DNA from: Pseudisothecium myosuroides
Lineage: Eukaryota > Streptophyta > Bryopsida > Hypnales > Lembophyllaceae
Reading direction: 5' to 3'
DNA: 64,000 bases
Assembly (NCBI GenBank): GCA_951799445.1
Contig: OX637293.1
Span: 22,878,001-22,942,000, forward strand
Below are positions 747 through 45,769 of this stretch, one piece after another. Position 1 is the stretch's first letter. Each line of letters begins with the position of its first letter. The position numbers and the translations under genes were made by a program. Under the pieces are notes generated by a model, which worked only from the letters and a program-made list of their open reading frames with translations, was not told where the DNA came from and made no database searches.

Positions 747-1394
747 TTAACCCCTAAATGCCCAAGGACTTTTTTGAGCTTTTAGGAATGTTCTAAATTG
801 AATAAAAAGTCAAAACTTTGATACGTTCATCAATTTATTTTGAATTGTAATTGTACAAATTCAAACTAGACATGTTAGAGATCACATAGGAGAAGGAAAC
901 ACAACAGCATCACTTACCGATTGAAAGATTATAATGTTTGATCATGAAGGTGTTAAAACTATGAAAGTGATTTGAAGTCTTTCAATCTTCTTTTCACATG
1001 TCAAATCTAAAAAGTTGGTCACCAAAAAAATATGAGGGTAAAGGACCTAACATGCATAATTCCAATCAATTTATGGCTTTTCAAAATCTATTCTACAATT
1101 CTTTTAAATGAATTTCTAATGTGATTTTTTCTCCAAGATCTAGTGTATTTGAGGCTCATTTCCTAGAGCCCTCAATACTATGGAAAGTTAAGATTGGAAT
1201 GGACACCCTTGCACAAAATCTTGAATAGAAAAATCATAATCAATCATTTTCAAATTGGATTTTTGATGCTTAAACTAGAGTTCAGATTTAAAATATATAT
1301 AGAAACAATTAAACGTAACAACTTGGTTAGGTTTTATTTTACTTCAAAGTATTGTCAACACCAAAATTTGGAACCTTGGGCATTTAGGGGTTAA
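747..1394. mobile_element. TTAA-flanked MITE, copy E1 (perfect 17-bp TIR)
   Basis: The element lies between TTAA at 747-750 and TTAA at 1391-1394. Inside these, CCCCTAAATGCCCAAGG (751-767) is the exact reverse complement of 1374-1390, giving a perfect 17-bp terminal inverted repeat. The interior is AT-rich and has no transposase. It is related, in inverted orientation, to the copy at 33512-34138, which shares the terminal motif and stretches such as the segment around 925-945. TTAA duplication with CCC...GGG ends is known from the piggyBac superfamily; assignment here is inference. Confidence 0.85.
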
Positions 1395-1579
1395 TCTATT
1401 CATGACACAAGGAAAATGTTTTCCTAGCATTAAAAATTATTACAACATAGATCACTCAATTTTTTTAAAAATGCATATTAATATTGAAAGTAAAGTAGAC
1501 ATGAGACCTATTAAATACTGGCACATTAATTTCCATCAGTAACATTTTTCTAGCAAGCAAACCAAGCACCTGGATGATT

Positions 1580-2513
1580 TTAACCCCTAAAGGACCGAGG
1601 CCTTTTTTCTGCCAAAAAACAATGAAAACTGCCATTTCTATAGCAAAGAGTAAAAAAATTTGAAAAATGTTTTTTTTTCACATCCAACCGTAGGATCTTA
1701 CACCTAACTAGTATAAGAATGTGTGGAATTTTTTTTAGAATTTTTGACCGCACAGATTGCAAGATATTTGCATTTAAAGTGAAAAAAACAAGTTTTTCAG
1801 CACATTGTGGGACTAGATTTTTTGACTTTAAACATTTTTAACTTAAAATTTTTGCACTACAGAGTTTTGAGCTTTTATTTTTTATAGTGGAGAATTGAGT
1901 TGAGAGTCTAGAAAAAAAATAATATTAAAAAAAAACTTAATTATCATTCTTAAAAAAATTGTTAAGTAGATGTAGGTACAAGATAGAAGGAAAATCTAAA
2001 ACATTCATATATTTTAGATGGAATTAAAATGCACTAATCCCAATGGTGAGATTGTTCTAACAAGTAAATCAGACCATTCAAAAAAAAAAAAATTGAAAAA
2101 TTTGAAAAATTGCATTCAGAAATGAATCCTAAAGTTATTTTTTTCAAGAAGATGCTTTAATTGCCCGAAAAACAAGAATGTCCATAACTTTCTCATAACA
2201 TATCCAAATGAAATGAATCAAAGCTTTCCGGAAAGCCAAAAATATAATCTATGAGAAAAAAAATATTAAAAAAAAAATTTTTGTCCATTTTTTTTTGCTG
2301 CCCGAGCTGCCCCGTGTCCCCTGTTTTGAGCTTATATGGTCATAACTTTTTTTCCCGGGCACCGATTGTGAAAAAATTTATATTCTCTTTAAGCTAATCA
2401 GTTTTTCTATCTCCAAAAAAAGTTTCAAAAAATCAGGAGAAATTTTCAGCCCGTAGACACCTGCCCGAAAACACATTTGTCCCCCGTAGGGACAATGGTC
2501 CTTTAGGGGTTAA
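1580..2513. mobile_element. TTAA-flanked MITE, copy E2
   Basis: TTAA occurs at 1580-1583 and 2510-2513. CCCCTAAAGGACC after the left TTAA is the exact inverse of GGTCCTTTAGGGG before the right one (13-bp TIR). The interior is AT-rich with no coding capacity. It is very similar to E3 in the same orientation and to E5 in opposite orientation. An internal motif near the right end, around 2475-2500, has a hairpin-like CCCCCGTAGGGA segment. Confidence 0.88.
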
Positions 2514-2775
2514 GAGATTGGTTAAAAAACAAATTTTATAAGTTATAATGCTCCATAACTTTCACAAACGGAATGAATCAAAGTACTTATATGGACAAAA
2601 ATATATTCAATGAAGGAAAAAAAAATTCAAAGTTTATTTCAAGCATTGTATTTTTCAGCTGCCTGAGCTGAAGCATTTTCAACTTAGAGGTGCGAGCAGG
2701 GGTGTCATTATTTTTGCCTTGTTCATTGATGGAAACAAAAAATTTACTCTCCAAAAGCTAATCTATTTTTCTATC

Positions 2776-3934
2776 TTAACCCCTACAAGACCGAGGCCTT
2801 TTTTCTGCCAAAAAACACTGAAAACTGCCATTTCTATAGCAAAGAGTAAAAAAATTTGAAAAATGTTTTTTTTTCACATCCAACCGTAGGATCTTACACC
2901 TAACTAGTATAAGAATATGTGGAATTTTTTTAGAATTTTTGACCACAGATTGCAAGATATTTACATTTAAAGTGAAAAAAACAAGTTTTTCAGCACATTG
3001 CGGGACTAGATTTTTTGACTTTAAACATTTTTAACTTAAAATTTTTGCACTACAGAGTTTTGAGCTTTTAATTGTTATAGTGGAGAATTGAGTTGAGAGT
3101 CTAGGAAATAAAAAATAAAAAATTTAAACTTAATTATCATTCTTAAAAAAATTGTTAAGTAGATGTAGGTACAAGATAGACGGAAAATCTAAAATATTCA
3201 TATATTTTAGATGGAATTAAAATGCACTAATCCCAATGGTGAGATTGTTTTAGCAAGTAAACTAGACCACGCAAAAAAAAAATTGAAAAATTTGAAAAAT
3301 TGCATTCAGAAATGAATCCTAAAGTTATTTTTTTCAAGAAGATGCTTTAATTGCCCGAAAAACAAAAATGTCCATAACTTTCTCATAATAAATCCAAATG
3401 AAATGAATCAAAGCTTTCCAGATAGCCAAAAATATAACCCTGAAGCGCTTCGACGTCCATATTCTGGACGATGAACAGAGCGCTTCAAGGTACTGTTTAG
3501 CCCAGCTAATTCTCATTCATCCACTGTAATACTTGGATTTAGAAAAGACAACCTTCCTTAATGACCAAATTCCAGAAATTTCAGAAAATGATGTTTCTAT
3601 ACAAAGATATAAGCAAAAATGTGCAAAATTTCGAAAAAGGATTGAGGCGTTAAGGGGATAATCTATAAGAAAAAATATGTTAAAAAAAGAAATTCAAATT
3701 TTTGTCCATTTTTTTTTGCTGCCCGAGTTGCCCCCCGTCCCCTGTTTTGAGCTTATATGGTCATAACTTTTTTTCTTAGGCACCGATTGTGAAAAAAATT
3801 ATATTCCCTTGAAACTAATCAGCATTTCTACCTCCAAAAAAAGTTTCAAAAAATCAGGAGAAAATTTCAGCCCGTAGGTACCTGCCCGAAAATGCATTTG
3901 TCCCCCGTAGGGACAATGGTCCTTTAGGGGTTAA
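2776..3934. mobile_element. TTAA-flanked MITE, copy E3, with a nested element
   Basis: TTAA occurs at 2776-2779 and 3931-3934. The left end reads CCCCTACAAGACC, the right end GGTCCTTTAGGGG. The body is nearly collinear with E2 except for an extra 220 bp (3438-3657), which is a second, shorter element of the same kind. The two tandemly placed copies E2 and E3 are separated by about 260 bp of unrelated AT-rich sequence. Confidence 0.86.
3438..3657. mobile_element. Short CCC...GGG element nested in E3 (ATAA duplication)
   Basis: E2 gives the empty site: a single ATAA followed by TCTATGAG. In E3 this ATAA is doubled (3434-3437 and 3658-3661) around a 220-bp insert starting CCCTGAAGCG and ending GCGTTAAGGGG. 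The insert is the same family as the element inside the phosphoglucomutase copy (18285-19256), in inverted orientation. Its target is ATAA rather than TTAA, so the site preference tolerates one mismatch. Confidence 0.8.
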
Positions 3935-4002
3935 AAAGATTTCTCAAAAAATTGTGCCAAAAACTGAAATTATACAAATTTGGTTGAGCTTTCATTTGTC
4001 CC

Positions 4003-4603
4003 TTAACCCCTATGGGACTGGGGGTGTTTGGGCATAGTCCCTGTTTTCTTGACTAGCTCTTGTGACAAGCATAATTCCTCATTTGTGTGGAATGATTTTG
4101 ATGATCGCCACTGTTGAAATGAAATAAGACTTATTTAGCTTCCCTGTAAAAAAAGATCAACAAAATCGCACAATTTTTGAGAAAATGCCACTGTTGACAA
4201 GATTGATGAAAGATGTTCGGTTAGGGAGTACTTTGTATGTACGCTGAAATCAAGATGTTGAAATCAAAATGCTCAAAACTGCTCCAAAAATTCTGATTTT
4301 TTCCCACATGTGCATATCATCATAATATTGATGTGTAATTTTTTTCAAATCATTTTGAGGTGTAGAAAAAAAGATATGAGAATGTGAAGTAATGGCCTAC
4401 AATGATTTTCCATTCTCAAAAATTTCATCAAAAATTTCACACTCAATCATTTCTCAATCGGATTGCACCAACAAGATTCAACAAAAAAAATCATCTAGGG
4501 TCTCTTTGTTGCTTATGGACTATTAGTGAGGTTCACATATCAATTTTTTTACAAATGTAGTTGTAGAATCCATGTAGTGGCCTTATGGTCCTTTTGGGGT
4601 TAA
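4003..4603. mobile_element. TTAA-flanked MITE, copy E4
   Basis: TTAA occurs at 4003-4006 and 4600-4603. The left end is CCCCTATGGGACTGG and the right end GGTCCTTTTGGGG, an imperfect inverted repeat. The interior is AT-rich and unrelated at a glance to E2/E3, suggesting a separate subfamily sharing only the ends. Confidence 0.75.
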
Positions 4604-5430
4604 CCACAATCTTTTATGGGTGAAATTGGATATATTGAAAAATTTTACTCCCCAAAAAATAATCTATTTTCCTTTCTTAAGAATAGAATTCAAAAAATTG
4701 CACCCAAAATTGAGATAATAAGAATCTTTCTAAGCTATCATTTTCACTTGAATGGACAATAATATTTTAGTGGTCAAAGGGGGATTCATTTTTTTCCCAA
4801 CTTATCTACATTAGGAGTATTTGTTTGTGCTACTTGAATGCCACATCCAATTGCCATATTTCCACTTCATTAAATTATAGCATTGCATGTCATTGTCAAT
4901 GCCAAGTATTTAATCTCCAAAATTTTCTTTCTATTTTGGTTTTAAACTATGTAGTCTTAAAACTCCAAAACTAAAGATTTTGGATTAGTCAAAAACTAAA
5001 AGTTTCACTATTCAAATTGGAGTAGTGGCAATGAAGATTACATCACAAAAACTTTGTGCAAAAATAAACCTTAAAACAAAAAATTTAAAATATAAAATAA
5101 ATGGATAAAATTGGTTAATTTGATCAATGCCCAAGTCCTTAGCATTACTAAAACTTCAGTTCAAACTTTTGAAACATAACTTCCAAAAATTTCAAATTTA
5201 AACTTTTGAAACATTTCAAATTTAGGGGGCTACACAAGTTAGTCATTTTTCCTAAGTGTATAAAACATGACTATATTTCAAACGGATTAAAGAAACTACA
5301 CATTTCAAACTTAGAAGGCTACAAAAGTTACTTATTTTCTACTTGTTCATATATTGCAGGGTTTACATGTGCATTGAAATATACAATTTGAGCACATAAT
5401 TCATGAGACAATAGTTACAGATTCATTTTT
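4604..5430. repeat. Dispersed repeat, inverted partner at about 36420-37760
   Basis: Blocks of this segment recur as reverse complements on the other side of the Em gene. One pair covers text around 4830-5040 and 37300-37540. Another covers about 5200-5250 and 37080-37150. A third covers about 5280-5390 and 36430-36560. The right-hand copy is split by extra sequence at about 36575-37070. No coding capacity was recognised, and the nature of the repeat is unknown. Confidence 0.7.
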
Positions 5431-5897
5431 CTTTCAATTTGAACTCTAATAAAAAACGAATTCTTAACTTTGGTCTCATGTGATATTTTTATTATTCTTA
5501 TTCAAATTCTATCTTTCTTTGGCATGTCAACAACGGTCACATGTATTATCGTTATCCTAACAATCATGAAATGTCATTAAATCTCACCCTCCACTCCGTT
5601 TGTAGTTCATTTCTTATTCTAAATAGCATTTGAATTCTTATTCAATTTTTTATTTTTGTTGCATATCAACAAGGCAAGATTGCATGCAATCTAATTGTAA
5701 AAGAATTGTGCTCTTCCTAAATCAAAGCTTTACATTCCATCACTGCACAACAAGGGCATCATCTATAAATTTGCCTAAGTCACAAATTTTATTTCCATCC
5801 CCTCTTTGTAGCTTTGAGTTGCAATGCCTATTTTTTTTTATTGTTGGGAAGCTCAGTTGTCAAATTTACTCTAACCTCCCTTGCATCTAGAAAGTCC
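5431..5897. other. Intergenic, no gene recognised
   Basis: AT-rich sequence with one 86-codon open frame (5630-5890, plus strand) of low-complexity composition that I do not regard as a gene. Confidence 0.4.
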
Positions 5898-6297
5898 TTA
5901 ATCCAATAACATTGCAATAGATACTAAGTGTCCAATCGATGATAGTGAATCCTTCTATAGTAACATCACAACAGACACTTAGTATCCAATGGTTGATAGA
6001 TAATCCTTCTGTAGTAACATCACTACAAATACTAAATGTCCGATGGATGATAGAGAATCCTTTTGTAGTAACATTGCTACATATACTAAGTGTCCAATGG
6101 ATGATAGAGAATCCTTCTTTGTATGAAGGAACTTTGTATGAGGATAGATGTTCATCCTTGGAATTTTGAGTGAAAAGGAGAGGTCTTGCAGAGTAGATTG
6201 ACCTCCAATGATTGCTCTTGGATTTTTTAAGCAAATGATTCACACGGTACCCAGAAGGATGATTTCCACGGTGACCAGCCCAGTGTTCCAGGGTTAA
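5898..6297. mobile_element. TTAA-flanked element E14, just downstream of the phosphoglucomutase gene
   Basis: TTAA occurs at 5898-5901 and 6294-6297, with ends TCCAATAACA and TGTTCCAGGG (imperfect inverse). It contains a 54-bp tandem array and, near its right end, a module (about 6259-6282) also found in E13 on the other side of the phosphoglucomutase gene. Lack of an empty site makes the boundaries an inference. Confidence 0.6.
5905..6120. repeat. 54-bp tandem repeat, about 3.7 copies
   Basis: Successive GATAG(T/A)... landmarks fall at 5941, 5995, 6049 and 6103, an exact 54-bp period with a few substitutions per unit. Because 54 is a multiple of three, both strands carry open frames through the array (for example 5939-6169 plus, 5887-6309 minus); these look like by-products of the repeat rather than genes. 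Confidence 0.88.
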
Positions 6298-6627
6298 ATA
6301 CGAATACACTTATGTGATGAAGAATTATGTTTATCAGCGATGGTCCCAAGCCCAAAATTGAGTCGATGACAATCAGATTTTGGGAATAAGTAATACCAAA
6401 ATTGAAAAAATAAAATTCTGCACAGTTCGCTAGAACTCTTGCACTGTGCCAGCAATATGCATCCGGTGAACAAAGATAAATTGAGGTCGCAGCTTCACTC
6501 CTACAGTAGTTATGAAGCGTCCATCTAAACTCATCCATGTACAGTACATGTACAGGTGCCCTTCCAATGTGCTCTGTTGCACATGCCTTCTCTGCCTTGC
6601 TTTCAACTGCCTGCCAATAGGTCTCAT
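6298..6627 (-). other. Probable 3' flank/3' UTR of the phosphoglucomutase gene
   Basis: Non-repetitive sequence directly after the phosphoglucomutase stop codon on the minus strand, ending at the TTAA element E14. Open frames here (6227-6538 and 6430-6627, minus) are short and unrecognised. The exact poly(A) site cannot be set from sequence. Confidence 0.4.
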
Positions 6628-12740
<6,113 letters not shown>

Positions 12741-17262: not shown

Positions 17263-17486
17263 CACTACAAGAGAAAGGGGTGTTTTAAGTGAGTTTTTAA
17301 GTATAGTCCTAGACACATGATTTTAAGTAATGACCTTTAAGGAGATTTTTAGCAAAATTTTACTTTAAGCACATGTGTTTTAAGTAAAATTTTGCTGAAA
17401 ATCTCTTTAAAGGTCATTACTTAAAATCATGTGTCTAGGACTATATCTTTAAAAACTCACTTAAAACACCCCTTTCTCTTATAGTG
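17263..17486. mobile_element. CACTA-type foldback MITE
   Basis: Begins CACTACAAGAGAAAGG and ends CCTTTCTCTTATAGTG, flanked by the 3-bp duplication GGT (17260-17262 and 17487-17489). The two halves are nearly perfect inverse copies over about 105 bp each, so the whole element can fold into one long hairpin. A 3-bp duplication and CACTA ends are the standard marks of the CACTA (En/Spm) superfamily. Confidence 0.88.
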
Positions 17487-18284: not shown

Positions 18285-19256
18285 TTAATCCCTAAATGCC
18301 TCAATCCTTTTATGGATTTTTGCACATTTTTGTTTATATCTTTGTATAGAAATATCATTTACCATGCCAAAATTTCATGACTGTAGTTGTTAATCCCTAA
18401 ATGACAAACCCATGATCATTGATTTCAAACCTCACTGCCCATCATTCAATTTGCTGCCATTTTGCAACTAGATATTTATGAAATTTTTTATATTTATTTT
18501 TGAGAGATGAATTTACATGTATTTTTTACTTCACAAAAATTTTAGGTTTTTTTGTGGAAAGTTGATTTTTTTTTAGAATTTTTGAAAAAAAAGTGGAGAA
18601 AAATCATATCAAATAGAAAATTATTTCAAAAAATCTGAAAATTTCACTATGTGTGTATATTACAATGACAAACATCATGGTGTAAACTCAATTTCCGTAT
18701 CATTCTATAATTAGAAAATAATAGACATTAAAAATACATCCAAAGTTCAAATTGCAATAAAATATTCAATATTAGGAATTTTTCAAAATTCAAATTGGAG
18801 TAGAAACTAGAGTAATGACCTTCATTTTGTCAGTTGGGCTCAAACTCAAAAAATATCATTTTTGTAGAAAAATTTTAGATTTAGAGAAAGGAGCAACAAC
18901 TTCCCAAAACACTCTAAAATAGCATATTTTGTGATTTTTTTTTTAATAACTTCTCATTTACTTGAAGACAAACATTAGAAAAACTACAAATTCAATTGGA
19001 TACTCTTCATAACCCAACAAGAAAGAGCAACAAGGAAAAAGGGGGATGAAATAATGCTTTTGACATCTTTCCATCTCACAATATTGTCATCGAAATGCCA
19101 CAGAATGGCGCCCGCAACACTCTAGAGTTAAGGAAGGTTGTCTTTTCTAGATTCAAGTATTACATTGGATGAATGTAAAGTTAGTTGGACTACATAGTGC
19201 CTTGAAGCCCTCTGTCATCGTCCTAGAATATAAATGCCGGAGCACTTCAAGGTTAA
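18285..19256. mobile_element. TTAA element inserted in duplicated phosphoglucomutase exon 1
   Basis: The intact gene has one TTAA (inside the codons for Phe-Lys, residues 4-5). In the copy this is replaced by TTAA (18285-18288), an insert, and TTAA (19253-19256). Ends are TCCCTAAATGCCTC and GAGCACTTCAAGG. Three extra bases (CGC) separate the parental left flank from the left TTAA. The family is that of the 3438-3657 insert. A second element occupies 18390-19131. Confidence 0.85.
18390..19131. mobile_element. TTAA element nested inside the preceding one
   Basis: TTAA occurs at 18390-18393 and 19128-19131. Ends are TCCCTAAATGAC and CACTCTAGAG. The related empty site in the 3438-3657 insert has a single TTAA before GGAAGGTTG on the corresponding strand. 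It is an inverted relative of the copy at 30892-31636, sharing the GCCACAGAATGGCGCC block near one end. Confidence 0.82.
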
Positions 19257-20612: not shown

Positions 20613-21696
20613 TTAATCCTTAAAGTCCTCAAGTTTTTTTTTATTAAAAACCACTTAAACTATCATTTCGAATGCAAACATCAAAATGTTTAAACAATTG
20701 GGTTTTTTTGCATATTTAATTGTAAGACCTTGCACTACACTAATAAAACTAGTGAGGAAGAAATTTCTGAAACTTTGATTGACCACGTAGATTGCAAGAT
20801 ATTTGTATTGAAAGTGAAGAAAACAAGTTTTTAAACATTTTACCTCGCATTTTACCTAACTAGATCTTAAGAATAACTTGCATTTTTTTGCAAAATAGTA
20901 ATAAATAGGCAAAAAATAACTTGCATTTTTTTTTGGACTCTAAATCCTAAGAATATTTGCAACTTGCTCCAAATTTTTTTTAAATCATTTATAAAATTGC
21001 ATTAAACAACTAATTTACATCAATCCATTAATTAAAAAATAAATAATAATAAAAATAAAAATGGAGTTGAGAGTTGGGGGAAAAAATCAAAACAAATCAA
21101 TTAATTTTCATGCTTAATAATATATTGTTACGTAGAAGAACACACAAGATAGAAGGAAAAAATAGATTGTTAGTTGAATTGTTAATAGTTCTAAGATGGA
21201 ATTGGAATACACTTATTCCAATGGTGAGATTGTTTTTGCAAGTAAACTAGACTATATGGATTTTTTTTTAAAGATTTGTGAAAATCAAGTTCAAAAATGA
21301 ATCCAATAAGTAATCTTTTGAAGATCATGCTATATAAATTGCCCAATCGACAAATCAAGACTATTTATAACTTTCTCATCACTAATCCAAATGGAATGAA
21401 TCAAAGCTTTTCATAAAGACAAAAGTATTTTCTATGAGATACAAAAAAATTGTTATTATTATTATTATTATTATTATTTTTGTACTCCCTTGCAAATTAC
21501 TTTTTGAGCTTAGACTCGCATTATTTTTGCTTTTTAACATTATTGAAATTTTTTAAAATGGTATTTATGAGAAAATAATGCATTCTCTCATCTTTAAGAA
21601 AGGTTTACAAAATCAAGTCAAGAATAGAAATCATAGGAACTTGCTTTAACCTTCATGTATCCCCAAAGAAAACACTTGGCGGACTTTAGGGATTAA
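20613..21696. mobile_element. TTAA-flanked MITE, copy E8
   Basis: TTAA occurs at 20613-20616 and 21693-21696. The left end is TCCTTAAAGTCC and the right end GGACTTTAGGGA, an 11/12 inverse match. The interior shares blocks with E2/E3, such as the segment about ACACAAGATAGAAGG near 21143, plus a microsatellite at 21452-21477. No transposase. Confidence 0.82.
21452..21477. repeat. (TTA)n microsatellite
   Basis: About eight tandem TTA/ATT triplets within E8. Confidence 0.9.
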
Positions 21697-25584: not shown

Positions 25585-26146
25585 TTAAGTCTTAAAGTTC
25601 CAAAGCCATTTTTTCTCAGAAACAACTTAAAATTGCAATTTTTAATGCAATCAACAAAAATTTCAAAGATTTTTTTTCCCTCCAAATGTTGAATCTTGCG
25701 CTAAACTAGTATGAGAATGTGTGGAAGGAATTTCAAAACCTTTGACCATATAAATCACAAGATATAAGCATTTAATGTAAAGAAAATAATTTTTTTCAAG
25801 AATTATTTTACTGCGGGCTTCATAACTTTCACATCACTAATCCGAATGGAATGAATCAAATCTTCCCATATAGACAATAATACAATATACAAAAATTTAA
25901 ATTATTTAAATTATTTCAAATTTTTGTGGAATTTTTTTTTGCCTTGCCTATCATGTATTGAGCTTATTGTAGTATAACTTCTATTTTTGGGTGTTGATTG
26001 AAATAAAAATTACATTCCTCCAAAACTAATCAATTTTCCTATTTTTTTTTTAAAATTCAAAAAATCTTGACAAAAAATCAAACCATAGGTACGCGTCTTA
26101 ATCTTCAAGAGCCCCTAGAGGGGATCCTTGGGACTTTAGGGGTTAA
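25585..26146. mobile_element. TTAA-flanked MITE, copy E9
   Basis: TTAA occurs at 25585-25588 and 26143-26146. The left end is GTCTTAAAGTTCC and the right end GGGACTTTAGGGG. Internal blocks (for example around 25685-25720 and 25830-25860) match those of E2, E3 and E8, showing a diverged family member. Confidence 0.78.
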
Positions 26147-30891: not shown

Positions 30892-31636
30892 TTAACCCAG
30901 TAACGCCGCCGGCGCCATTCTGTGGCGTCGGAATGACAATACTGTGAGCTCAACAGAGTTTTAAAGTATTTTTTCATCCGGACTTTCTTTGTTTGACTTT
31001 TCATGTTGGGTTATGAAGAGTATCCAATTGTGTTTGTAGTCTTGCAAGTGTTTGTCTTCATGTAAATGAGAAGTTAGTGAAAAAAAAGGATCACAAAATA
31101 TGCTATTTTAGTGTATTTTGGAAAGTTGTTGCTCCTTGCTCTAAATCTGAAATTTCTCCACAAAAATGATATTTTTTGAGTTTGAGCCCAACTAACAAAA
31201 TGAGGGTCATCTACTCTAGTTCCTACTCCATTTTGAATTTTGAAAAAATTCCTAATATTGAATATTTTATTGCAATTTGAACTTTGGATGCATTTTCAAT
31301 GTCTAATATTTTCTAATTATAGAATGACACGGAAATTGAGTTTATACCATGATTTTTGTCACCGTAATATACACACATGGTGAAATTTTCTGATTTTTTG
31401 AAATATTTTTCTATTTGATATGATTTTTCTTCACTTTTTCTTCAAAAATTCTCAGAAAAATCAATTTTTCACAAAAAAATCTAAAAATTTTATGAAGCAT
31501 AGAAGACATGTAGTTCCATCTCTGAAAAATAAATATAAAATTTTTCATTCATATCTAGTTGCAAAATGGTAGAAAACTGAGTGATAGGCAGTGAGGCTTG
31601 AAATCAGTGGTCATGGGTCCGTCCTTTAAGGGTTAA
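30892..31636. mobile_element. TTAA-flanked MITE, copy E11
   Basis: TTAA occurs at 30892-30895 and 31633-31636. The left end is CCCAGTAACGCC and the right end CCGTCCTTTAAGGG. It is an inverted relative of the nested element at 18390-19131: both carry the GGCGCCATTCTGTGGC block near one end. The left end has a short GC-rich palindrome. Confidence 0.8.
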
Positions 31637-33511: not shown

Positions 33512-34138
33512 TTAACCCCTAAATACTCAAGGTCCCATATTTAGATGTCAACAAAATTATGAAGTTAAATAAAAAATTATCAAAATATTACTTTTTGTAG
33601 TTTTTTAAAATTGAATATCTTTCAAGCTTTTTTTAAATACCAAAAATCTTATTTCAAAATAAATTATTCATAATTTTCTTGTTGAAGATTTTATGTTAGG
33701 ATGTCCATTACAAATCTTGATTTTTTTTTGTATTAGGTACTCTTGAAGATGAGCCTCTATCAATGCCTTCAAATATTCTTAGTCTCGGGGGGAAGAAATC
33801 ACATTGAAAATTCATTGTGCATGCTTTGTCCTTTAACCTCATATTTTTTCTTGATTTCAATTTTATATTTGACAAATCAAACGAGGATTCAAAGACTTCA
33901 AATAACTTTCACACTTTAGCACCCTCTTGATCAAACATTATAATCTTTCACTCCATAAGTAATATTATTGTATTTTTTTTTCTTATATGATCTTTGATAC
34001 ATCTAATTTGAACTCATATGGGTACAATTTTTTTTAAAATTGATAATGCTTATCAAATTTAGGATTCTTTGTTTAGTTTTGAGTAAAATCTAAAAAAATC
34101 AAAAAGGCCTTCAGCATTTAGGGATTAACTTAGTAATA
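33512..34138. mobile_element. TTAA-flanked MITE, copy E7
   Basis: TTAA occurs at 33512-33515 and 34135-34138. The left end is CCCCTAAATACTCAAGG and the right end CCTTCAGCATTTAGGGA. It is an inverted, diverged relative of E1. Placed only 11 bp right of the preceding MITE. Confidence 0.8.
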
Positions 34139-35006
34139 GGAGGTCAAAGGAAAAATACAACACAAAAACTATGGTTGTTTATAAAAGTTAGTGATCTTAG
34201 ATATTATTTGATTTAATTTGAGATACAAATTTCATATTTTGTTTTCTAATTTTGTTCAATCTTCCTCTTTGGTCATGAAATGGATTACAAAAGACTCCAA
34301 ATTATATCTTATGAAGACTTTAAAACTTGCAATAGTTGCAACTAGTTAGATGGAATATTTTATTTTATTTTATTTTCATGTGTCATTTAAAGTTGGATGA
34401 GTTCATCATCAAATACAAGCTCCTAATTTTTGAACTAATTGAAACATTAAATTTGAAGGTCTTAAATTAGTCTATAATGACGGGATGTATTCCATTGATT
34501 AATTAACAAGCATACTTATAGGATGTCAAAAAAAAAAAAAAAAGTCACAACAATAAAGTTTGAATTCGAGTATATCTCTAATAAAATGAACAAGCCTAGA
34601 AAAGGTCTCTTGAATTCATATAAGCTAATAGAAACCAAATGAATTTCATCTAAAGCTTTTAAATTAAAATATATGTTATTTTTGCATTTTATTCGCCTTT
34701 TTGAAGTCATTCAAAGGATATAAAATTCGCTCTTTCAATTACAATTTTTTTTAAATGAACATAGAAATTATTTTGGTTAATTTTTTTTTCAAGTATTTAC
34801 AATCCATTTTCCAACGTATTGGCTAAAACGTAAAAGTTATGGAACACATATGTTGTATCTTAGATATATATGCTAAAAGACAAAACTTCACCTTTAGAAA
34901 GGTCTTCAAAACTTTAGTTTTTGAAGTTAAGTACATTGACCTTCCAATCTATGTGGGTGCAGTAGGCTATTACTAAAATATTTTTTGGAGGATGAATTTG
35001 AACAAG
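34139..35006. other. AT-rich intergenic sequence
   Basis: No gene or clear repeat boundaries; includes a poly(A) run near 34528-34542. Confidence 0.4.
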
Positions 35007-35210
35007 TTAACCCCTAAAAGACCAAGTAGTATTTTTGGGCAACATAGAGTTTGGGGGCATGCAAGTACTGACTGAGTGAATTTAGAATTTTTGCATCTAA
35101 AATTTTCGTACAATGTGTGAAAGAAGAGTATCTTTCACGAGCACTAAATTTCAGAACTTTAAAGTAAATAAACTGTAAAAAATTTATTTAGTGATTAGTC
35201 ACTTTTACCT
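35007..35210. mobile_element. Left end of a TTAA element (E15), right end not found
   Basis: TTAACCCCTAAAAGACC at 35007-35023 matches the family terminus. The following 180 bp loosely matches the left 200 bp of E6 (44825-45010), for instance the ACTAAATTTCAG phrase. No matching right terminus was identified, so this copy is probably truncated or decayed. Confidence 0.6.
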
Positions 35211-35690
35211 CAACAAGGGCACTTTGAGACACAATCTTGACTATCACAAGGACAAATTTCAATGTTTTTGAGTTTTAAATTTTTTTTGTAAGAGAGGGTA
35301 TGACAAATATAACATTTAGTAGCCTTCAGAGAGGTTGCCTTTTCCTCTCCGGAGTCCTCATCCACCAAATTCATCTATAATACATCATTAATTTAAGGTT
35401 CAACACCGGGATAGTGGCAGTACATTTATGGTGTGATCCATTTTATTTTGCTAATTCTAGGATTGAACATACAATTCAACAAATAATTGTAAAAAAATTG
35501 GTTTCCAAAAAACCCCAAGCTAGAATCCATTGAGTAACTTATTAATGCATCTATCACGTGGCTTTCAATAACTTATTTTTAAATTTCAAGTTAGAAGAGA
35601 AGCTCTTCATATATAGTTGGGGTGGTAGAAGGTAGAACAACCAATGTGGGATATATAAATTAGAATTTGTAGTTTCTTAACCACTCATAG

Positions 35691-36102
35691 TTAAGTCAAA
35701 GTAGAAATTGCGTTTGAAATAGAATCTCAGACCTCATTAAGGCTTAGTAGAATAATTTTTTTCAAAAATCTTTGAACTAATAAAATTTGGGAAAAATTAA
35801 GTTAAGTTAAGTTCATTTCCAAAAATCTATTTGGGATTTCAATCCTTCAATCAAAAGTTATGGACAAATTTCAGAGAGGATGTTTAAAATTGTCAAAGAA
35901 AATGTCCATTCCAACCCCTCTCTAAAGTTTGTCCATAACTTTTGATTGGAGACTTGAAATACCAAACGGATTTTTGGAGATGAAACTTAACTTAATTTAT
36001 CAACTTTTATTAGTTCAAAGATTATTGAAAAAACTTATTCTACTACGCCTAAACGAGGTCTAAAATTCTACTTTAAACAGAATTCCTGCTTTTGACTTGA
36101 GC
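35691..36102. repeat. Long foldback: ~190-bp inverted arms
   Basis: 35691-35881 is an imperfect reverse complement of 35917-36102, separated by about 35 bp. Shared phrases include ATCAAAAGTTATGGACAAA and its inverse, and the outer AAGTAGAA/TTCTACTT motif. It could be a foldback transposon; if transcribed it would give a long double-stranded hairpin. Terminal duplications were not identified. Confidence 0.85.
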
Positions 36103-36419: not shown

Positions 36420-37760
36420 TGTCACATGAATTATGTGTGAAAATTGTACCATTTCAATGCACACATAAACCCTACAATACATGAACAAGTAGAAAATAAT
36501 TAACTTTTTTAACCTTCTAAGTTTGAAATGTGTAGTTTCTTCAATCCATTTGAAATGTAGTCAAAAACTGTCTTTTGAGTGGATAGTGAGGAATGCTGTT
36601 GTTTTACTATTTTTTATCATAAAATAAAAAATTTAAATTTTCAAATTTTTCATATACCTTCCCCCTTTAAAAAAATTAAAATTTAAAATTAAAATTTTTT
36701 TCATTACCCCTCCCCCCCGTCTTGTAATTTCAGAAACCAACATACTTGATAAACAATATGGGACAAACCTGTATCCAGTATCCATACCAGTATCCATATC
36801 CCGTACCTGTATTTGAATCCGTATTTGCATTCTATATTCACTATGTATTCATATACAATAGGGTATCCATTTCTAATATTCATTTCATATTCGTATCCGT
36901 ATTCATATTTGGACGGCTCAAATTAAATCTCACAAGATCAACAGCTTGTGATTTTTTGAGAAATCGACGGCGATTTTGAAAGTAAGCATTTAAAAAAAAA
37001 AATCAATGGTGCAAGATTTTTCTCGCCCCGGGGGGGGGCCACAAATCATCACGTCCTGTCTACACAGGAGATAGTCAATCACATTCCATACACTTGGAGA
37101 AAATGACTAACTTGTGTGGCCTTCTAAATTTGAAATGTCTAATTTTGGATGGCCCTTGAAATGTAGTCATGTTTCAAAAACTTGAAACAAAGTTTTGATA
37201 ATGCTTGACGGCATGGGCATGAAATTTACCAATTTCGCCCATTTACTTTATATTTTGATTTTTTTGTTTTAAGGATTACTTTTGCATAAAGTTTCTGTGT
37301 TGTAATCTTCAAGGTCACCACTCTAATTTGTATAGTGAAGCCATTAATTTTTGACTAATCCAAAATCTTTAGTTTTAAGATTTTTAATACTATATAGTTT
37401 AAAACCAGAATAGAAAGAAATCTTGGAAATTAAATATCTGGCATTAACAATGACATGCAATGCTATAATCTAATGAAGTAGAAATATGGCATTTGAAAGC
37501 AACATTCAAATAGCACAAACAAATACTTCCAACGTACATAAGGTGGAAAAAAACAATAGTTGTCAATTCAAGGAAAAATGAAAGCTTCGTGAGGTTTATA
37601 TTATCACAATTTTTGGGTGAATTTTTGTGAAATTGGGAATAAATTTTTTAGCATACATACTTTAACCCATAAAAAAACGTGGTCCCTTTAATAGACAAAT
37701 GAAAATTCAACCAAATTCTTATAACCTCAATTTTTGACACAATTTTTTGAAAAGTTTTTT
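36420..37760. repeat. Inverted copy of the repeat at 4604-5430, interrupted
   Basis: Blocks at about 36430-36560, 37080-37210 and 37300-37560 are reverse complements of 4604-5430. The interval at about 36575-37070 is absent from the other copy. That interval contains C- and G-runs (36709-36717 and 37030-37038) and a degenerate GTATCC(A/G)TA repeat at about 36770-36910. Confidence 0.7.
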
Positions 37761-38219
37761 TAAGATAGAAAAACAGATTAGCTTTTGGGGAGTAAATTTT
37801 TTGTTTCCATCAATGACCAGGAGCAAAAATAATGACACCCTGAGCTCAAAATGCTTGAGTTCAAGCAACCAAAAAATACAAATGCTTGAAATAAATTTTG
37901 AGGTTTTTTTTGCTTCATTGAATGTATTTTTTTTTTGTCTATATTAATACTTTGATTCATTTGTTTTGTGAAAGTTATGGGTCATCATAATTTATAAGAT
38001 TTATATTCTAACTAATTTTTCAAAATCATCCTGGTGCTTATTTTGCTTGGTGGAACAGTCTTACTAATTGGAATTGATGTGTTTAATAGGTCTTAAATCT
38101 AATGCAAGAAAGACTAGTACTGTTTTGCGTCACTTGAAGTGACAGAGTTGTCATGTGCTATAACTTTTGAAGCATGAATGCCATTAACTTGAAATTTTTA
38201 TTGGAGATGTCTTACTTAA
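37761..38219. other. AT-rich sequence, no gene recognised
   Basis: No feature identified between two repeat copies; short open frames on both strands overlap and have low complexity. Confidence 0.35.
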
Positions 38220-38600: not shown

Positions 38601-38936
38601 AATGCCTATTTTATTGAGATTTTGCTAGTTTATGAGACTTTTCTAGTTTTCCTACTTAGAATTTTTTTTCTATTCTTTTCATTCTTAGGATAACTTCTTC
38701 TTAAAAGTGTATACATTAAAAATATTTTTCACATTTAAAAAAAATTGTTTTTCTAGTTATACAATACTCCCAAAAGAAAACATGAGTACTATGAAAAACA
38801 CTACAAAAATCGGTCGGTCTTTCTTGCAATCACCCAAGTATATATTTGGGAAGCAACAACCTCTTAAAGTGGTGAAATATGAGGACAATAAAAGATTCAT
38901 TGAAAAAATTTCTTTAAAGATTTTTTTTAATGCTTT

Positions 38937-39760
38937 TTAATTCCTAAAGTCCTAAAGACTTTTTCATCAAAATCCACTCAAAACTACCATTTCTAATGTA
39001 AGGAGAATTTGTTTAAGCAATTGTTACTTTTGCATAATCAATTTTAGAATCTTGCACTAGACTAATAAAAAAAAAGTGTGGAAGAAATTTCAAAAACTTT
39101 AAGTGACCACATAGATTGCAAGATATTTGTATTTAAAGTGAAGAAAACAAGTTTTTTTCACTTTATACAACTAGATTATAAGACTTTGAATCTTCTTAAT
39201 TTGAAATTTTTGCACTAGAAATTTCTAATTCAATCTACTTTTTTATATTGAAAAATTGAGTTAAGAGATAGGGAAAAAATTTTAGAAGAAAAATACTTGA
39301 TTTTAATTCTTAAATAATTGTTACTTAGAAATAGGCACAAGATTGAAGGAAAATTTTTACTGGTTGATAGTTTTGAGATAGATTTGAAATATACTAATTC
39401 CAATGACAAGATTGTTTTAGCAAACAAAGCAAACTATATGAAACTTTTTTTTTTGATAATTAATGTAAATTGAGTTCAAAAATAGATCTTATAACTTATT
39501 TTTTGAAGATCTTGTTATGGTTGCCCAGTAGTCAAAGACTATCCATAATGCATTTGTAATAGTGCCTGGCACTATTATTGGCTTGTGCCCCTCGTGCTTT
39601 ACGCAACGGGAGGGCCTCCCCCCTCAAGCTCCCATCGTGTAAGGATCCCTCAGGCTCGGGCTCCCGCCCTTGCCTTCAGGGCCTTCACACGACAGGAAGC
39701 CTTCGAGGGGAGGCCTCCCACTATATATAACATTCTCATCACTAGTTCATGATTATGTTT
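38937..39760. mobile_element. TTAA element E10, incomplete and interrupted
   Basis: TTAATTCCTAAAGTCC at 38937-38952 is a family terminus. The following 600 bp matches E8 in order. It is interrupted at about 39550-39730 by a GC-rich insert and then diverges; a right terminus was not found. The flank at 38700-38936 is shared with E8. Confidence 0.65.
39550..39728. mobile_element. GC-rich foldback insert in E10 (possible MULE-type)
   Basis: The insert is markedly GC-richer than its AT-rich host. GGGAGGGCCTCCC... near the left end and ...GGGAGGCCTCCC near the right, with surrounding blocks, are imperfect inverses over about 45 bp. Flanking CTATCCATAA and CTATATATAA may be a roughly 10-bp duplication, as seen with Mutator-like elements, but two positions differ. 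Confidence 0.5.
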
Positions 39761-41135
39761 CCAAGCAACCACTTGTCATATTCTATTGTTTATTTGGTAT
39801 ATATATATTGTGCAATTCCAATCAATTTGAAATTTTTTGAGCATGATTCCAACTCATGTAGAAATAAAGATTTGAAGAAGCACAACTCATACAAGTAGTT
39901 CTAAATATGCCTTTTCTCCTTGGAAGTGCAGCTGCTTGGAATTTGGGGTACCTCTAAGAATTCCACAACTTTGATGCTTATGATCTCACAAACTATTATA
40001 ACTTTGGATCTGAATTTTTCTTAAATTAGAAATATGAAAGTCAAATGAAGGATATAACGGTCAACTTTCTGTATATTGCCTTCAAATTTACTATACACCT
40101 CAATTTTAGGGCATGTCATTCACTTAAGATCAATTCCATCACCTAAATTCTCTAAACCTTTTAAAAGAAGTAATTGACAATTGCGGGTTGGATTAATTAA
40201 AGACTAGAACAAGATGAAAATTTTAGCCTTAGTTTGGATGCAAAGTAATTTGAAGCATTTTTAGGCCTCAAATCACCGTAGAACCTAAAGGATTAAGAAG
40301 CATTGGAATTATCCAAGAAAACAATACATTCTATGAGGAAATTAGGTTTTAGGGTGTGTAGAAATTCAAGTGAAAAACAATGTTAACCCTATACTACTTG
40401 CATCTATTTTTGAAATTTTCCACATGTTTGTTTATATCTTTAAACAAATATTTTTGGTAATTTAATTACTTCAATTCATCAAACTAGTTGTGGAGGAAGG
40501 AGTTATCTTTTTAAAAATTTAGACTATATTTTGTATAAATAGAAGTTTTTTGGACGGAACTTAGCTTGGAAGCCCTCTGTTCATCATCCAAATTATGGAA
40601 TTCCGGATTCAAACATCAACAAAAAGAAAACATATAAGGTAGACCAACGCATTTCCATTTGCTGCCTAATATTGTCATCCTACTTTTGATCCCAATACCG
40701 TCCAACACATCATCCAAATTTAGACAATTTTTGAAAAAATCACTATAGTGACTACTTGGCTCAAATAGGACAATGGCAAAAATAATTTTACACTTGTAGA
40801 AGGGTGGTAATAGAGATGGGTGTGTATATAGTATGTTGGAGATACGATCATTTCAGCTTCCTCTTAGCTTGGAATAGCTCATGGCATCTTCAACTTCTAT
40901 AAATGCCATTGGATATGTAGGAGAGTAGTTATGGGTTGTTTATAGGATATTCATCACTCCCGACTCTATGAATGGTTTTGTAATTTTAGTGCAAATCACT
41001 TCAAAAATTCACAGAAATTACAATTTTAATAAGAAAATTATAATTCCACTTGGGTTTGATTCATGAAATAAGCACACACCTTCGAAAAATATGTGCCCTC
41101 TTACAGCCCATGGCCCCAAAATATTCAGATTGCTA
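39761..41135. other. AT-rich intergenic sequence left of the copia element
   Basis: No gene or clear repeat recognised. Confidence 0.4.
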
Positions 41136-41140
41136 GTTTG

Positions 41141-41394
41141 TGTTGAAGTAGTGGCTAACTCAGAACTAGAATAGTAAGTGCTACTTCCAGGTGACAGTAC
41201 TCCAGGTGAACTGTCATTAAATAGAGCGATCTACTAGTTACCTGAAGCTCTCCACCTTATCTACACCCAAGATTAGGTGTTGGCCACCTAATTGGGATAA
41301 TATATACTATCATCTTCCCCGTACCAGAGGAGAGGTATTCTCTTGCTCATTTGTGTTGTTTGATATACTTAGAGCCTGTTCCTTCATCTTAACA
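41141..41394 (+). repeat. 5' LTR of the copia element
   Basis: Starts TGTTGAAGTAG and ends CATCTTAACA (TG...CA). The sequence after it, CGTTATCAGCATGAG, is in the primer-binding position but is not the canonical TGGTATCAGAGC complement to initiator methionine tRNA. Confidence 0.93.
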
Positions 41395-41492
41395 CGTTAT
41401 CAGCATGAGACTCTCTCTGATCTCTCAATTGTTTATTTTAGTTTTAATTCTTCCTTGTCTTTATAGCCTTCTCGCCCTAGTTTTCTCTATCG

Positions 41493-43306
41493 ATGGCGAT
41501 GCCTGTAGCAAAATGTCCCAGGGAAGAAAAAACAAATGTTCAACCGTTGCTTTTTGAGGCGTTGGAAGCTGACAGGAGCAATTACTTGGAGTGGAGCATC
41601 GACGCCAAATCTTATTTGTGTGCGGAGGGATTGGATGGTACCTTGATGAGAACAACGGGCGATTTGCTTGATTTGGAACCATCATCTTTCAAGTGGAAGG
41701 CGCTTCTTGTTCTGAGGCGGCACTTAGACTTCTCCCTTTGACAACAGTACATCCAAGTTGATCATCCAACCGAATTGTGGAAGCAGCTCGAGGCCATATT
41801 TCACCATGAGAAGACAATTTTTCTTCCTCAAGCCCGCAACGATTAGATTCATTTGGGTGTCTTGGATTTTTTTGACCTTTTGGCGTTCAACGCAGAGCTG
41901 CACCGGATCACTGCCCAGTTGCGCTTATGTGGAGAGACAATTCCGATAAGGAACTCATTGATAAGACTCTATCCACCTTCCCTCCTGCTTGACTGCTTTT
42001 GCTCTTTTAGCACAATAGTACCGCAATATGAAGTTTAACCCCTAAAGGCCCATTGTCCCCTCGGGGGACAAATGGGATTTCGGGCAGGTACCTATAGGCT
42101 GAAATTTTCTCCTGATTTTTTGAAACTTTTTTTGAAAATAGAAAAACTGATAAGCTTTGTAAGAATATAATTTTTTCCACAATCGGTGCCCGGGAACAAT
42201 AGTTATGACCAAATAAGCTCAAAACAAGGGACGGCGGGCAGCAGAAAAAAAATGGACAAAAATTTGAATTTTTTTTTTAATATTTTTTTCTGATAGATTA
42301 TATTTTTGCCTATCTGGAAAGCTTTGATTCATTTCATTTGGATATGTTATGAGAAAGTTATGGATATTCTTGTTTTTCGGGCAGTTAGAGCATCTTCCTG
42401 AAAAAAATAACTTGTAGGATTCATTTCTGAAAGCAGTTTTTCAAATTTTTCAATTTTTTTTTTTTATGGTGTAATTTACTTGCTAGAATAATCTCACCAT
42501 TGGGATTAGTGCATTTTAATTCCATCTAAAATATATGAATATTTTAGATTTTCCTTCTATCTTGGACCTACTTCTACTTAACAATTTTTTTAAGAATGAT
42601 AATTAAGTTTTTTTGAATTTTTTTTTTTTCCGTAGACTCTCAACTTAGTTCTCTACAATAAAGATTTAAAGCTCAAAACGCTGTAGTGCAAAAATTTTAA
42701 GTTAAAAATGTTTAAAGCCAAAAAATCTAGCCCCTCAATGTGCTGAAATACTTGTTTTTTTCACTTTAAACGCAGATATCTTGCAATCTGTGCGGTCAAA
42801 AATTCTGAAATTTTTTCCATACATTTTCATACTAGTTAGGTGTAAGATCCTACGGTTAGATGTTAAAAAAAAACATTTTTAATTTTTTTTTATACTTTGA
42901 TATAGAAATGGCAGTTTTCAGTGTTTTTTGGCAGAAAAAAGGCCTTGGGCCTTTAGGGGTTAACACTCACTCTCAGTTGATGTCTTATCTTTTGCTTGCA
43001 GAAAAGCAACAGCAACTTCTCTTGAAGAATGCTGAATCCAAGCCTGCTAAGGAAGTACACACGGTGGAGATACCAACACGTAGGCCACAGAGCATGAAGA
43101 CGCAGCAGCGGTGGAAGCAACAATCTTCCTCAAAACCTAGAGATAAGTCCAAAATCTCTGACAAACCTAATTCAACTGATTCAAAGTCTGATGTTAAGTC
43201 TCATGATACCCGGACATGTTACAAGTGTGGTAGGGTTGGGCACATTGCTAAGGACTGTAGAGTTGCAACAGTTCAAGGTTGGGCAGAGAGGGGCCCATAC
43301 CCTTGA
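41493..43306 (+). pseudogene. copia gag region with zinc knuckle, interrupted
   Basis: The gag-like frame starts at the ATG at 41493 and is stopped at 41739-41741. Further recognisable gag sequence continues in shifted frames to about 42034, then resumes after the TTAA element. A CX2CX4HX4C zinc knuckle (C-Y-K-C...H...C) is encoded at 43217-43258. Stops and frame changes make it non-functional. It packages RNA in active relatives. Confidence 0.88.
42035..42963. mobile_element. TTAA-flanked MITE, copy E5, inside copia gag
   Basis: TTAA occurs at 42035-42038 and 42960-42963. The left end is CCCCTAAAGGCCC and the right end GGGCCTTTAGGGG, a perfect 13-bp inverse. It is an inverted relative of E2. 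Removing the element plus one TTAA leaves codons reading Met-Lys-Phe-Asn-Thr-His in frame, matching the conserved gag motif at that place, which fixes the duplication as TTAA. Confidence 0.93.
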
Positions 43307-44824
43307 TGCCCCCTCGATTGATGAGACAGACTTAGAAAATTATATGGTGAACACGATACAGTCCGTAGATCAACTTGATGTAGCTCTATTGGATAGTGCC
43401 ACCACGCATACGATCTTGTGGGATCAGGAGTATTTTGACTTCTCTAGCCTAGCCGATTCCTGGCAAGTTTGTGGCATTACCACCATTGCAGAAAAACGGG
43501 ACATGATGTTCCGTGAGGGCCAGGCAACTCTGATTTTGCCTAGGGGGACCCCCCCTCAAAATTGCAAAAGCAATGTATGCTCGGTCAGCCCTCCGGAGCC
43601 TGATCAGCTACCGGGACCTACGGGCAAACGGAGTCCACGTTCTCACCGCGGTGAGGATTGGTGAAGAGGTTCTGGAATTCAGGCAAGGGCAAAGATTCCT
43701 TGCCACTGCACATGCAAGAGCCAACGGCCTATATGTAATTCACATCAGCGGTACTACCGGACCAACTTTGATGCATCCAGCTACTGGAATTAAGCAACCC
43801 TCGGGCTCTGCTTTCTCTATCATGTTTCCAGCCAAGACTGGATTATGGCACAGCAGGTTGGGGCACCCTGGAACTACAATGTTCAGGCATATGTTGCCGT
43901 TGCTAGCAGGCCATAACATCTGCCCCAGCGACGCTGACAAGGTGGGGGAGTGCGCTGCTTGTTCCCAAGGAAAGCTAATCAAGCGCCCCTCGAGGTGGAC
44001 ACTACCAACGGAGCTTCCACCAAAGCTACAGCGTTTACAAGGTGATGTTTGCGGACCTATTATCCCTATTTTTGGACCTTTCAGATATTTTAGTCCTCGT
44101 TGATGCATCCGGGACTCATTCTGAGGTATCATTGCTTAGCAACAAAAATATGTTTTTTTCCAAACTGTTAGCTATGCTAATTAAGTACCAGGCTCATTAT
44201 CTGGACTACCCTGTGAAAACTTTGAGGATGGATAATGCCCAAGAGTTTTGGTCACGGCACTTTGAAGATTATTGTGTAGCCTTTGGGATTACCTTGACCT
44301 ATTCGGTTCCATATGAACACTCCCAAAATGGCTTAGCTGAAGCATTCATTAAGGAAATTCAGCTAATTACACGGCCGCTTTTGCTACATGCAAATCTACC
44401 CCCTACGTTCTGGGGACATGCCGTTCTTCATGCTGCTACTCTCCTTAGATTCCGTCCTACTCTCCTTAATGATCATTCCCCTTTAGAGTTACTTTCGGGA
44501 CAGGTTCCTAACGTTTCTCATTTTAGAACTTTCGGATGTAGAGTATGGGTTCCTGTAGCTGAACCACAGAAGAAAACAATTGGTAGCCACCGGCAGGAAG
44601 GAATATACGTAGGATTTGATTCCCCTAGTATCATTCGCTATATCTCCCCTTCCACTTGAACTCTGCATAGAGCCCGGTTCTAAAACTGCCATTTTGAAGA
44701 AACCCATTTTCCTCTGATCTCTAACCCCAAATCCAATTCTGCTTTAGAATTCCGGTCACCCAAAATGTTCACTCTTAATCCAGACCTAGAACTGCCCTAA
44801 TAGACTCTGAAGTACAGAAACTTC
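43307..44824 (+). pseudogene. copia protease and integrase region, defective
   Basis: A protease-like LDSATT motif lies near 43390. Integrase follows: the His-His-Cys-Cys zinc domain (LWHSRLGHPG ... CAACSQGK) at about 43846-43970. Core acidic residues fall in LQGDVCGP (about 44035), RMDNAQEF (about 44228) and NGLAEAF (about 44328). Frames change at about 43600 and 44050, so the polyprotein is broken. It ends at the second TTAA element. Confidence 0.88.
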
Positions 44825-45769
44825 TTAACCCCTAAAGAACCGGCATGTGTTTTTTGGCCGTATAGAAATTTTGGGCAGGTCCGTGTGACTAGAGATTTCC
44901 ATATTTTAAGCTGAAATATTAATAGAAGGTGGGCGCGAGGAATATCTTTCATACGCACTAAATTTCAGCACATTTGGAAATAGGAGTCAAAAGTTATGGC
45001 CAAATATGTTACTTTTTTTCGTAACTGGGCAGTCCGGGCAGCAAGAAAAATTTGGCAAAATTTTGATTTTTTTTTTTTAATATTTTTTTTCTTGTAGATT
45101 ATATTTTTGTATATCTGGAAAGCTTTGATTCATTTCATTTGGATTTGTTATGAAAAAGTTATGGACATTCTTGTTTTTCGGGCAATTAGAGCATCTTCTT
45201 GAAAAAAATAACTTGTAGGATGCATTTCTAAATGCTATTTTTGCAATTTAAATAAATAAAAAAATTCTCATGGTTTAGTTTACTTGCTAGAACAATCTCA
45301 CCATTGGGATTAGTGTATTTTAATTCCATCTAAAGTATATTAATGTTTTAGATTTTCCTTCTATCTCGTACCTACTTCTACTTAATAAATTTTTAAGGAA
45401 TGATAATTAAGTTTTTTTTAATATATTTTTTTTCCCTAGACTCCCAACTCAATTCTCCACTATAAAGTTTTGAAGCACAAAACTCTGTAGTGCAAAAATT
45501 TTAAGTGAAAAATGTTTAAAGTCAAAAAATTTAGTCCCGCAATGTGCTGAAATACTTGTTTTTTCAACTTTAAACGCAGATATCTTGCAATCTGAGCGGT
45601 CAAAAATTCTGAAATTTTTTCCACACATTCTCATACTAGTTAGGTGTAAGATCCTACGGTTAGATGTGGAAAAAAAAAACATTTTTCAATTTTTTTTACT
45701 CCTTGCTATAGAAATGGCAGTTTTGATGGTTTTTTGGCAGAAAAAAAGCCTTGGGCCTTTAGGGGTTAA
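44825..45769. mobile_element. TTAA-flanked MITE, copy E6, inside copia pol
   Basis: TTAA occurs at 44825-44828 and 45766-45769. The left end is CCCCTAAAGAACC and the right end GGGCCTTTAGGGG. Removing it with one TTAA gives codons Leu-Leu-Asn-Leu-Lys-Ser in frame with both sides. The right two thirds match E5; the left about 200 bp instead resembles E15, so it looks mosaic. Confidence 0.92.

Follow-up and report, generated by a model that had tools for sequence, protein, structure and literature searches.

The piggyBac transposase excises its element at a TTAA and reinserts it at another TTAA. Passages of two papers give the termini of the superfamily as 5'-CC..GG-3' or CCCT-type (PMC12732532, PMC10045372), and one of them presents a 4-bp duplication with CC..GG ends as common to piggyBac and IS1380 (PMC10045372). 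Short, non-coding miniature inverted-repeat transposable elements (MITEs) linked to piggyBac appear in excerpts on a coral (PMC2872659) and on mPok of Daphnia (PMC4912750). Here we report on elements of this kind in the window, that is the whole stretch of 64,000 nucleotides analysed (contig OX637293.1 of the moss Pseudisothecium myosuroides; C7:22878001-22942000 of the host assembly, 387.9 Mb in 222 contigs), where an initial annotation had described about fifteen TTAA-flanked, CCCC...GGGG-ended MITEs with a likeness to piggyBac.

At a probability of roughly 0.94, we regard the window elements as MITEs of a moss that belong, as non-autonomous elements, to the piggyBac superfamily. Their ends agree with the terminal rule given above and, together with two full-length families found elsewhere in the genome (PB1 and PB2), they share with T. 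ni piggyBac and with piggyBat the TTAA target, the CCC-type ends, the DDE_Tnp_1_7 domain and the DDD triad. They differ from these systems in their land-plant host and in an upstream frame that is alike in four moss families, while PB1 and PB2, with 5.4-5.6 kb and frames of up to 1,056 and 1,091 amino acids (aa), stand against beetle elements of 2,074-3,465 bp and ~500-725 aa in a passage of PMC12732532. The likeness to the coral and Daphnia MITEs is one of description, not of sequence comparison, and the host is here a moss. Plant Tourist and Stowaway MITEs are likewise short, non-coding and bounded by terminal inverted repeats (TIRs), but their targets are TWA or TA and their transposases of the Harbinger or mariner kind, according to a section of PMC12595863; the Kolobok T2-MITEs of Xenopus also lie at TTAA, but an extract of PMC6004289 gives them AGGRR termini and another transposase.

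Ends and target sites of the window elements

The ends of the window MITEs read TTAA-YCCCTAAA, a motif found far beyond chance when 30 order-2 Markov sequences simulated against the window were taken as the baseline. Exact TTAACCCCTAAA ends occurred 12 times in the window and in none of the simulated sequences. Scored as TTAA followed by CCCCTAAA, the motif was counted 12 times without mismatch (simulated mean 0, maximum 0), 20 times with at most one mismatch (mean 0.2, maximum 1) and 28 times with at most two (mean 2.9, maximum 9). A TTAA preceded 12 of the 15 CCCCTAAA octamers and all four TCCCTAAA octamers of the window, hence 16 of its 19 YCCCTAAA octamers. Both ends were exact CCCCTAAA in four elements out of 15 (747, 1580, 42035 and 44825). 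The terminal CCCTAAA is identical to the plant telomere repeat unit, probably by coincidence. The DNA fold of one MITE exceeded those of 20 shuffles in stability (z -4.3), for which the inverted ends alone would suffice.

The series of shared-end TTAA elements was confirmed with corrections: two of the fifteen are nested in others (3434-3661 within 2776-3934, 18390-19131 within 18285-19256), three had borders 1-10 bases off (3434-3661 replaces 3438-3657, 34128 replaces 34138 and 13678 replaces 13677) and two are weak. With the borders mended, 14 of the 15 were flanked by TTAA at each end and the remaining one by ATAA, a count that by itself is no test, since the elements had been selected for TTAA. 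Perfect inverted ends of 13-17 bp, reported for several copies, were found in three (17, 13 and 14 bp at 747, 1580 and 42035) and not in the other 12. All-against-all sequence comparison defined the families A, N and C, and two elements without a perfect terminal repeat form the weak group B (Table 1). Element 4003..4603 has no homologue among the other listed elements, and one of its two ends tops the shuffles described below by one point. The eleven outer elements apart from group B cover 14.4% of the window, and 15.35% when B is counted, close to the roughly 15% first estimated.

The target-site duplication was read from empty sites. The site of 3434-3661 carries a single ATAA in all three family A paralogues compared (1580, 42035 and 44825), and therefore ATAA was duplicated by this insertion; the site of 18390-19131 carries a single TTAA at the matching place in its relative 3434-3661. 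The duplication is thus of 4 bp, TTAA at one empty site and ATAA at another. Read in this way it leaves symmetric CCCC..GGGG ends, while unequal ends result from a 3-bp reading and, at the ATAA element 3434-3661, also from a 2-bp one; matching ends need 4 bp there. At 42035-42963 a Copia gag frame across the site is open only when one TTAA is kept, and all 32 homologous proteins returned span that junction ungapped; a gap upstream in these alignments is an artefact of the hand-chosen frame, not of the junction. Pfam on the joined gag peptide returned zinc-knuckle models, one over the cut-off, and no match across the junction. The Copia frame at 44825 is likewise open only with one TTAA, and none of the 32 homologous proteins aligns at this junction.

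Transposase-bearing loci and their relation to the MITEs

The piggyBac profile search that the initial annotation had proposed (DDE_Tnp_1_7, PF13843) was run on the host assembly and scored 116 matches among 899 candidates, all 116 above cut-off, with a best E of 1.7e-83; they lie on every one of contigs C1-C11, and no match was found in 14 control genomes. The stretches around 23 of the 116 matches were then examined. The borders of PB1 and PB2 were first set where equal-scoring copies stop matching, without use of the motif. PB1 comprises five copies of 5,414-5,416 bp including both TTAA, with a 14-bp perfect TIR; PB2 comprises six copies of 5,632 bp with an 8-bp perfect TIR and the ends TTAACCCCTAAATGTCC and TTAACCCCTAAACGACC. 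These full-length copies bear TTAA-CCCC ends, and all eleven are flanked by TTAA on both sides, on different contigs and in different flanks. Copies of PB1 are 0-4 substitutions apart and those of PB2 0-2, a near-identity that points to very recent movement. The longest open frames encode 1,056 aa in PB1 and 1,091 aa in PB2, with shorter frames of 901 and 895 aa in two of the five PB1 copies. Both ends were located in 15 of the 23 loci, PB1 and PB2 included, the right end only in seven and none in one (L031).

The PF13843 domain is complete to its end in both proteins (E 2.5e-84 in PB1, 2.6e-76 in PB2) and sits in the last 45% of the frames. Against solved structures, the PB2 protein matched piggyBat (9c0f, E 9.6e-32) and T. 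ni piggyBac (6x67, E 4.3e-21), and no other at E 0.01. The catalytic DDD triad (D268, D346 and D447 in T. ni) is kept in all ten moss proteins aligned to P0121, L016 having been excluded as too short. A profile of 120 insect piggyBac proteins matched 20 out of 20 moss frames at E 3e-23 or better, and cysteine pairs can be read near the C-terminus of the PB1 and PB2 translations. Between lineages, the likeness of moss proteins is 35-45% in the pairs printed, and L023 and L024 are 67% alike. In a tree of hand-chosen proteins, 12 from moss and 11 from insects, which without fungi, protists or algae is silent on origin, the moss and insect sets stand apart (support 100/100); the moss set falls into two groups (91/92 and 97/93), with L023, L024, L029 and L031 together.

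L009 and L017 (oriented) have frames of 257 and 281 aa lying upstream of the transposase. The upstream frame matches over 66-212 residues among four moss piggyBac families (PB1, PB2, L015 and L025), has no Pfam match above cut-off and could represent either a second gene or a 5' exon. Some elements abut with one common TTAA, as do PB2 and a family A-like MITE at the right flank of L017 (7081, oriented), and a transposase-bearing element and a family C MITE at 6790-6793 of L015 (oriented).

Comparing the ends of an autonomous copy with those of the MITEs, as had also been suggested, showed that the homology of the transposase-bearing loci L023 and L024 with family A reaches far beyond the terminal repeat at both ends. 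L023 starts with TTAACCCCTAAAGGACCAAAGTCCCCTCGGGGGACACTTGGGATTT and MITE 42035 with TTAACCCCTAAAGGCCCATTGTCCCCTCGGGGGACAAATGGGATTT. By BLAST, positions 1-150 of 42035 match L023 1528-1677 (E 1.7e-22) and positions 550-929 match L023 6776-7153 (E 4e-37) in the same order and orientation, so that the match covers 150 bp at one end and 380 bp at the other. When 30 MITE ends were compared with the 15 autonomous ends, with 60 shuffles each, 18 ends, all families taken together, outscored every shuffle with some autonomous end. The strongest matches were those of family A with L023 and L024, where nine ends (both of 1580, 2776, 25585 and 42035 and one of 44825) scored 21-41 against shuffled maxima of 12-15. 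In addition, the 13-mer AAAACTGCCAYTT lies 45 bp from TTAA in four window MITEs, in L023 and in the L029/L030 pair, and 44 bp from it in L024; this fixed inner motif resembles a putative transposase binding site.

Source of mobility and alternative explanations

The attribution of mobility to a piggyBac-like transposase is thus supported for family A, for which the tie is close, and is likely for the other families: one end each of B and C resembles a transposase-bearing locus, and N has no clear partner. In the proposed mechanism, a DDD transposase encoded by full-length copies elsewhere in the genome would bind the CCCCTAAA ends and, presumably, the inner motif, cut the element out at TTAA and insert it at another TTAA, occasionally at a near-match such as ATAA, with duplication of the 4 bp; excision would be seamless. 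Family A would have arisen by internal deletion from the lineage to which L023, L024, L029/L030 and L031 belong, its MITEs being moved by the piggyBac transposase, and families N, B and C would be served by related piggyBac enzymes. The anatomy of window and elements fits each visible part of the piggyBac scheme, of which binding, cutting and seamless repair would be the unseen steps.

Several observations weigh against this reading. Among the twelve of 30 MITE ends that fail to beat the shuffles are the two of 33512, the two of 18390, one of 44825 and three of the four from family N. Among 11 matches of the inner motif in L009-L031, six lie at 45 bp, two at 44 and three elsewhere or near no TTAA, and one of the five window matches has no TTAA nearby. 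L023 and L024 are 64-73% alike to family A beyond the tip and are therefore lineage relatives rather than exact parents; the L024 copy is, moreover, probably broken, because its frame begins at the edge of an A-like MITE. L029 and L030 were counted as one, since they match across the whole 8 kb. Both ends were located in only 15 of the 23 loci and, outside PB1 and PB2, they were sought with the MITE consensus as bait, which favours look-alikes. One target was ATAA, not TTAA, and the empty-site comparisons cover window MITEs only. The window contains no piggyBac domain of its own (best profile E 2.7; best BLASTP E 0.015, over 79 residues at 32%), the MITE copies counted are those of the window, and transposition is deduced from sequence, none having been observed. 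In L024 the A-like MITE occupies 3099-3991 (oriented), directly upstream of the transposase frame starting at 3992, which it probably interrupts.

The alternative that survives best, although unlikely, is that piggyBac mobilises family A only, N, C and B using another TTAA-specific transposase. The failure of three N ends to match the autonomous ends better than shuffles speaks for it, as do the margin of only two points by which the fourth (18285 left) tops them (13 against 11) and the ATAA target used by N. Yet all families combine TTAA, or ATAA, with CC-rich ends; the right end of C30892 matches the transposase-bearing L016 (18 against 12) and that of B5898 matches L026 (21 against 13); and the moss proteins form at least two groups, enough to supply diverse ends.

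Sola3 elements target TTAA, too. A source in Sola3 or Kolobok is nevertheless very improbable: the Kolobok target is also TTAA in a passage of PMC9587614, but the same passage gives its termini as 5'-RR..YY-3', as opposed to the CCCC/TCCC ends of the moss elements and in line with the T2-MITE termini mentioned above (PMC6004289), and the partner located encodes PF13843; Kolobok was rejected, no search having been aimed at Kolobok or Sola transposases. Equally improbable is contamination by piggyBac copies of an animal in the sample. The superfamily is known chiefly from animals, fungi and protists, according to a passage of PMC12732532, but PF13843 matches occur on each of contigs C1-C11, the flanks of PB1 and PB2 carry MITE families that in the window sit among plant genes, and the 12 moss proteins stand apart from the 11 of a contrast set made of insects only. 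Least probable of all are Tourist-like PIF/Harbinger (TWA) or Stowaway-like Tc1/mariner (TA) MITEs, whose targets TTA, TAA and TA are contained in TTAA and whose classes are among the usual ones of plants in an excerpt of PMC12550479, but which disagree with the 4-bp duplication, the only one to give symmetric ends (against a 3-bp TWA throughout and a 2-bp TA at the ATAA element), and which the piggyBac partner refutes for family A.

Window context and significance

The elements and fragments of the window are collected in Table 1. Further family A fragments lie at 34741, 35007, 37662, 38937 and 52877; the halves at 37662-37979 and 38937-39548 represent either a local inversion or two remnants, and both break at a near-equal internal position (317 and 324 of 42035). 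A decayed Copia element extends from before 42035 to 47661; stops and two family A MITEs interrupt it, and it has gag, integrase and reverse transcriptase (RT) pieces. Large inverted repeats outside the listed elements were noticed at 17263-17486 (72-nt arms, 94%) and 35698-36092 (97-nt arms, 84%).

Table 1. Coordinates of MITEs and related fragments in the window
Position	Strand	Assignment	Features
747..1394		MITE, family A	TTAA both sides; 17-bp perfect TIR; 69% to 33512-34128, full length
1580..2513	+	MITE, family A	TTAA both sides; 13-bp perfect TIR; motif AAAACTGCCATTT 45 bp from end; ATAA empty site for the element nested in 2776-3934
2776..3934	+	MITE, family A	TTAA both sides; broken by nested 3434-3661; motif at 45 bp
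3434..3661	-	MITE, family N	Nested in 2776-3934; ATAA duplication; filled/empty comparison with three paralogues
4003..4603		MITE, near family A by ends only	TTAA both sides; 4-bp perfect TIR
5898..6297		Weak candidate, B	No perfect TIR; right end resembles right end of transposase-bearing L026
13451..13678		Weak candidate, B	No perfect TIR
18285..19256	+	MITE, family N	TTAA both sides; carries nested 18390-19131
18390..19131	+	MITE, family C	Nested in 18285-19256; TTAA duplication from empty site in 3434-3661
20613..21696	+	MITE, family A	TTAA both sides
25585..26146	+	MITE, family A	TTAA both sides
30892..31636	-	MITE, family C	TTAA both sides; 87% to 18390-19131
33512..34128		MITE, family A	TTAA both sides
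35007..35287	+	One-ended fragment, family A	Begins TTAACCCCTAAA
37662..37979	+	Half element, family A	End TTAACCCATAAA
38937..39548	+	Other half, family A	Inverted order relative to 37662-37979
40383..40607	+	Fragment, family N	
42035..42963	-	MITE, family A	TTAA both sides; in gag part of Copia remnant; motif at 45 bp
44825..45769	-	MITE, family A	TTAA both sides; between integrase and RT parts of the Copia remnant holding 42035-42963; motif at 45 bp
52877..53109	+	Internal fragment, family A	

That the host is a land plant, and specifically a moss, was borne out by COQ4. Exons within 55179-56133 gave a 167-aa query whose nearest named match was Physcomitrium patens (91% identity over 93%), followed by Sphagnum compactum (82%) and Selaginella moellendorffii (72%), with a further match reaching 97%; the moss is thus probably a species other than Physcomitrium patens. 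A third exon lies at 56697-57038. Pfam on 20 further open reading frames of the window placed Coq4 over the cut-off and RVT_2 and DUF2198 weakly, below it, and neither an Rfam family at gathering score nor a tRNA was found in the window. The local profile of the 120 insect piggyBac proteins gave nothing convincing there. On viral contigs, 32 stretches fitted a piggyBac peptide pattern and none was a relative, and exact scans for the MITE ends returned no match on viral and prokaryote contigs.

The initial annotation had held piggyBac not to be established in land plants. The superfamily is indeed little documented there, but several papers do list it in plants: passages of insect and animal papers in general wording (PMC10140906, PMC10813416), parts of a plant review naming PiggyBac among plant superfamilies (PMC10794571) and of a review naming it among angiosperm MITE superfamilies (PMC10004981), and a fern survey with 1,230 PiggyBac repeats in the portion consulted (PMC6890710). 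The word occurs twice in a moss genome paper, on Niphotrichum japonicum (PMC10619864). Neither piggyBac nor TTAA is named in the main text, as far as available, of a MITE survey across 207 plant genomes, of a plant MITE review from 2025 or of a review on land plants. Within the titles, abstract starts and passages covered, most subscription journals lying outside this scope, we found none that brings together a transposase with its ends, target and MITEs for a land plant. The present case is that of a known superfamily in a little-documented host group, with a larger element build.

In this moss, a land plant combines a dense population of TTAA MITEs, a likely transposase source and near-identical full-length copies, so that origin, vertical or horizontal, silencing and the use of a native plant piggyBac as a tool become directly testable. 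Because the 207-genome survey and the 2025 review, in the text available, name neither piggyBac nor TTAA, such elements may have been missed or misfiled in plants. Tentatively, and at slightly less than even odds, the moss may host diverse, presently mobile and larger piggyBacs (~5.5 kb, with a ~1,000-aa transposase and a conserved upstream frame) that drive abundant MITEs. If so, no earlier piggyBac system of a land plant would have been shown all the way from transposase through MITE to target site.

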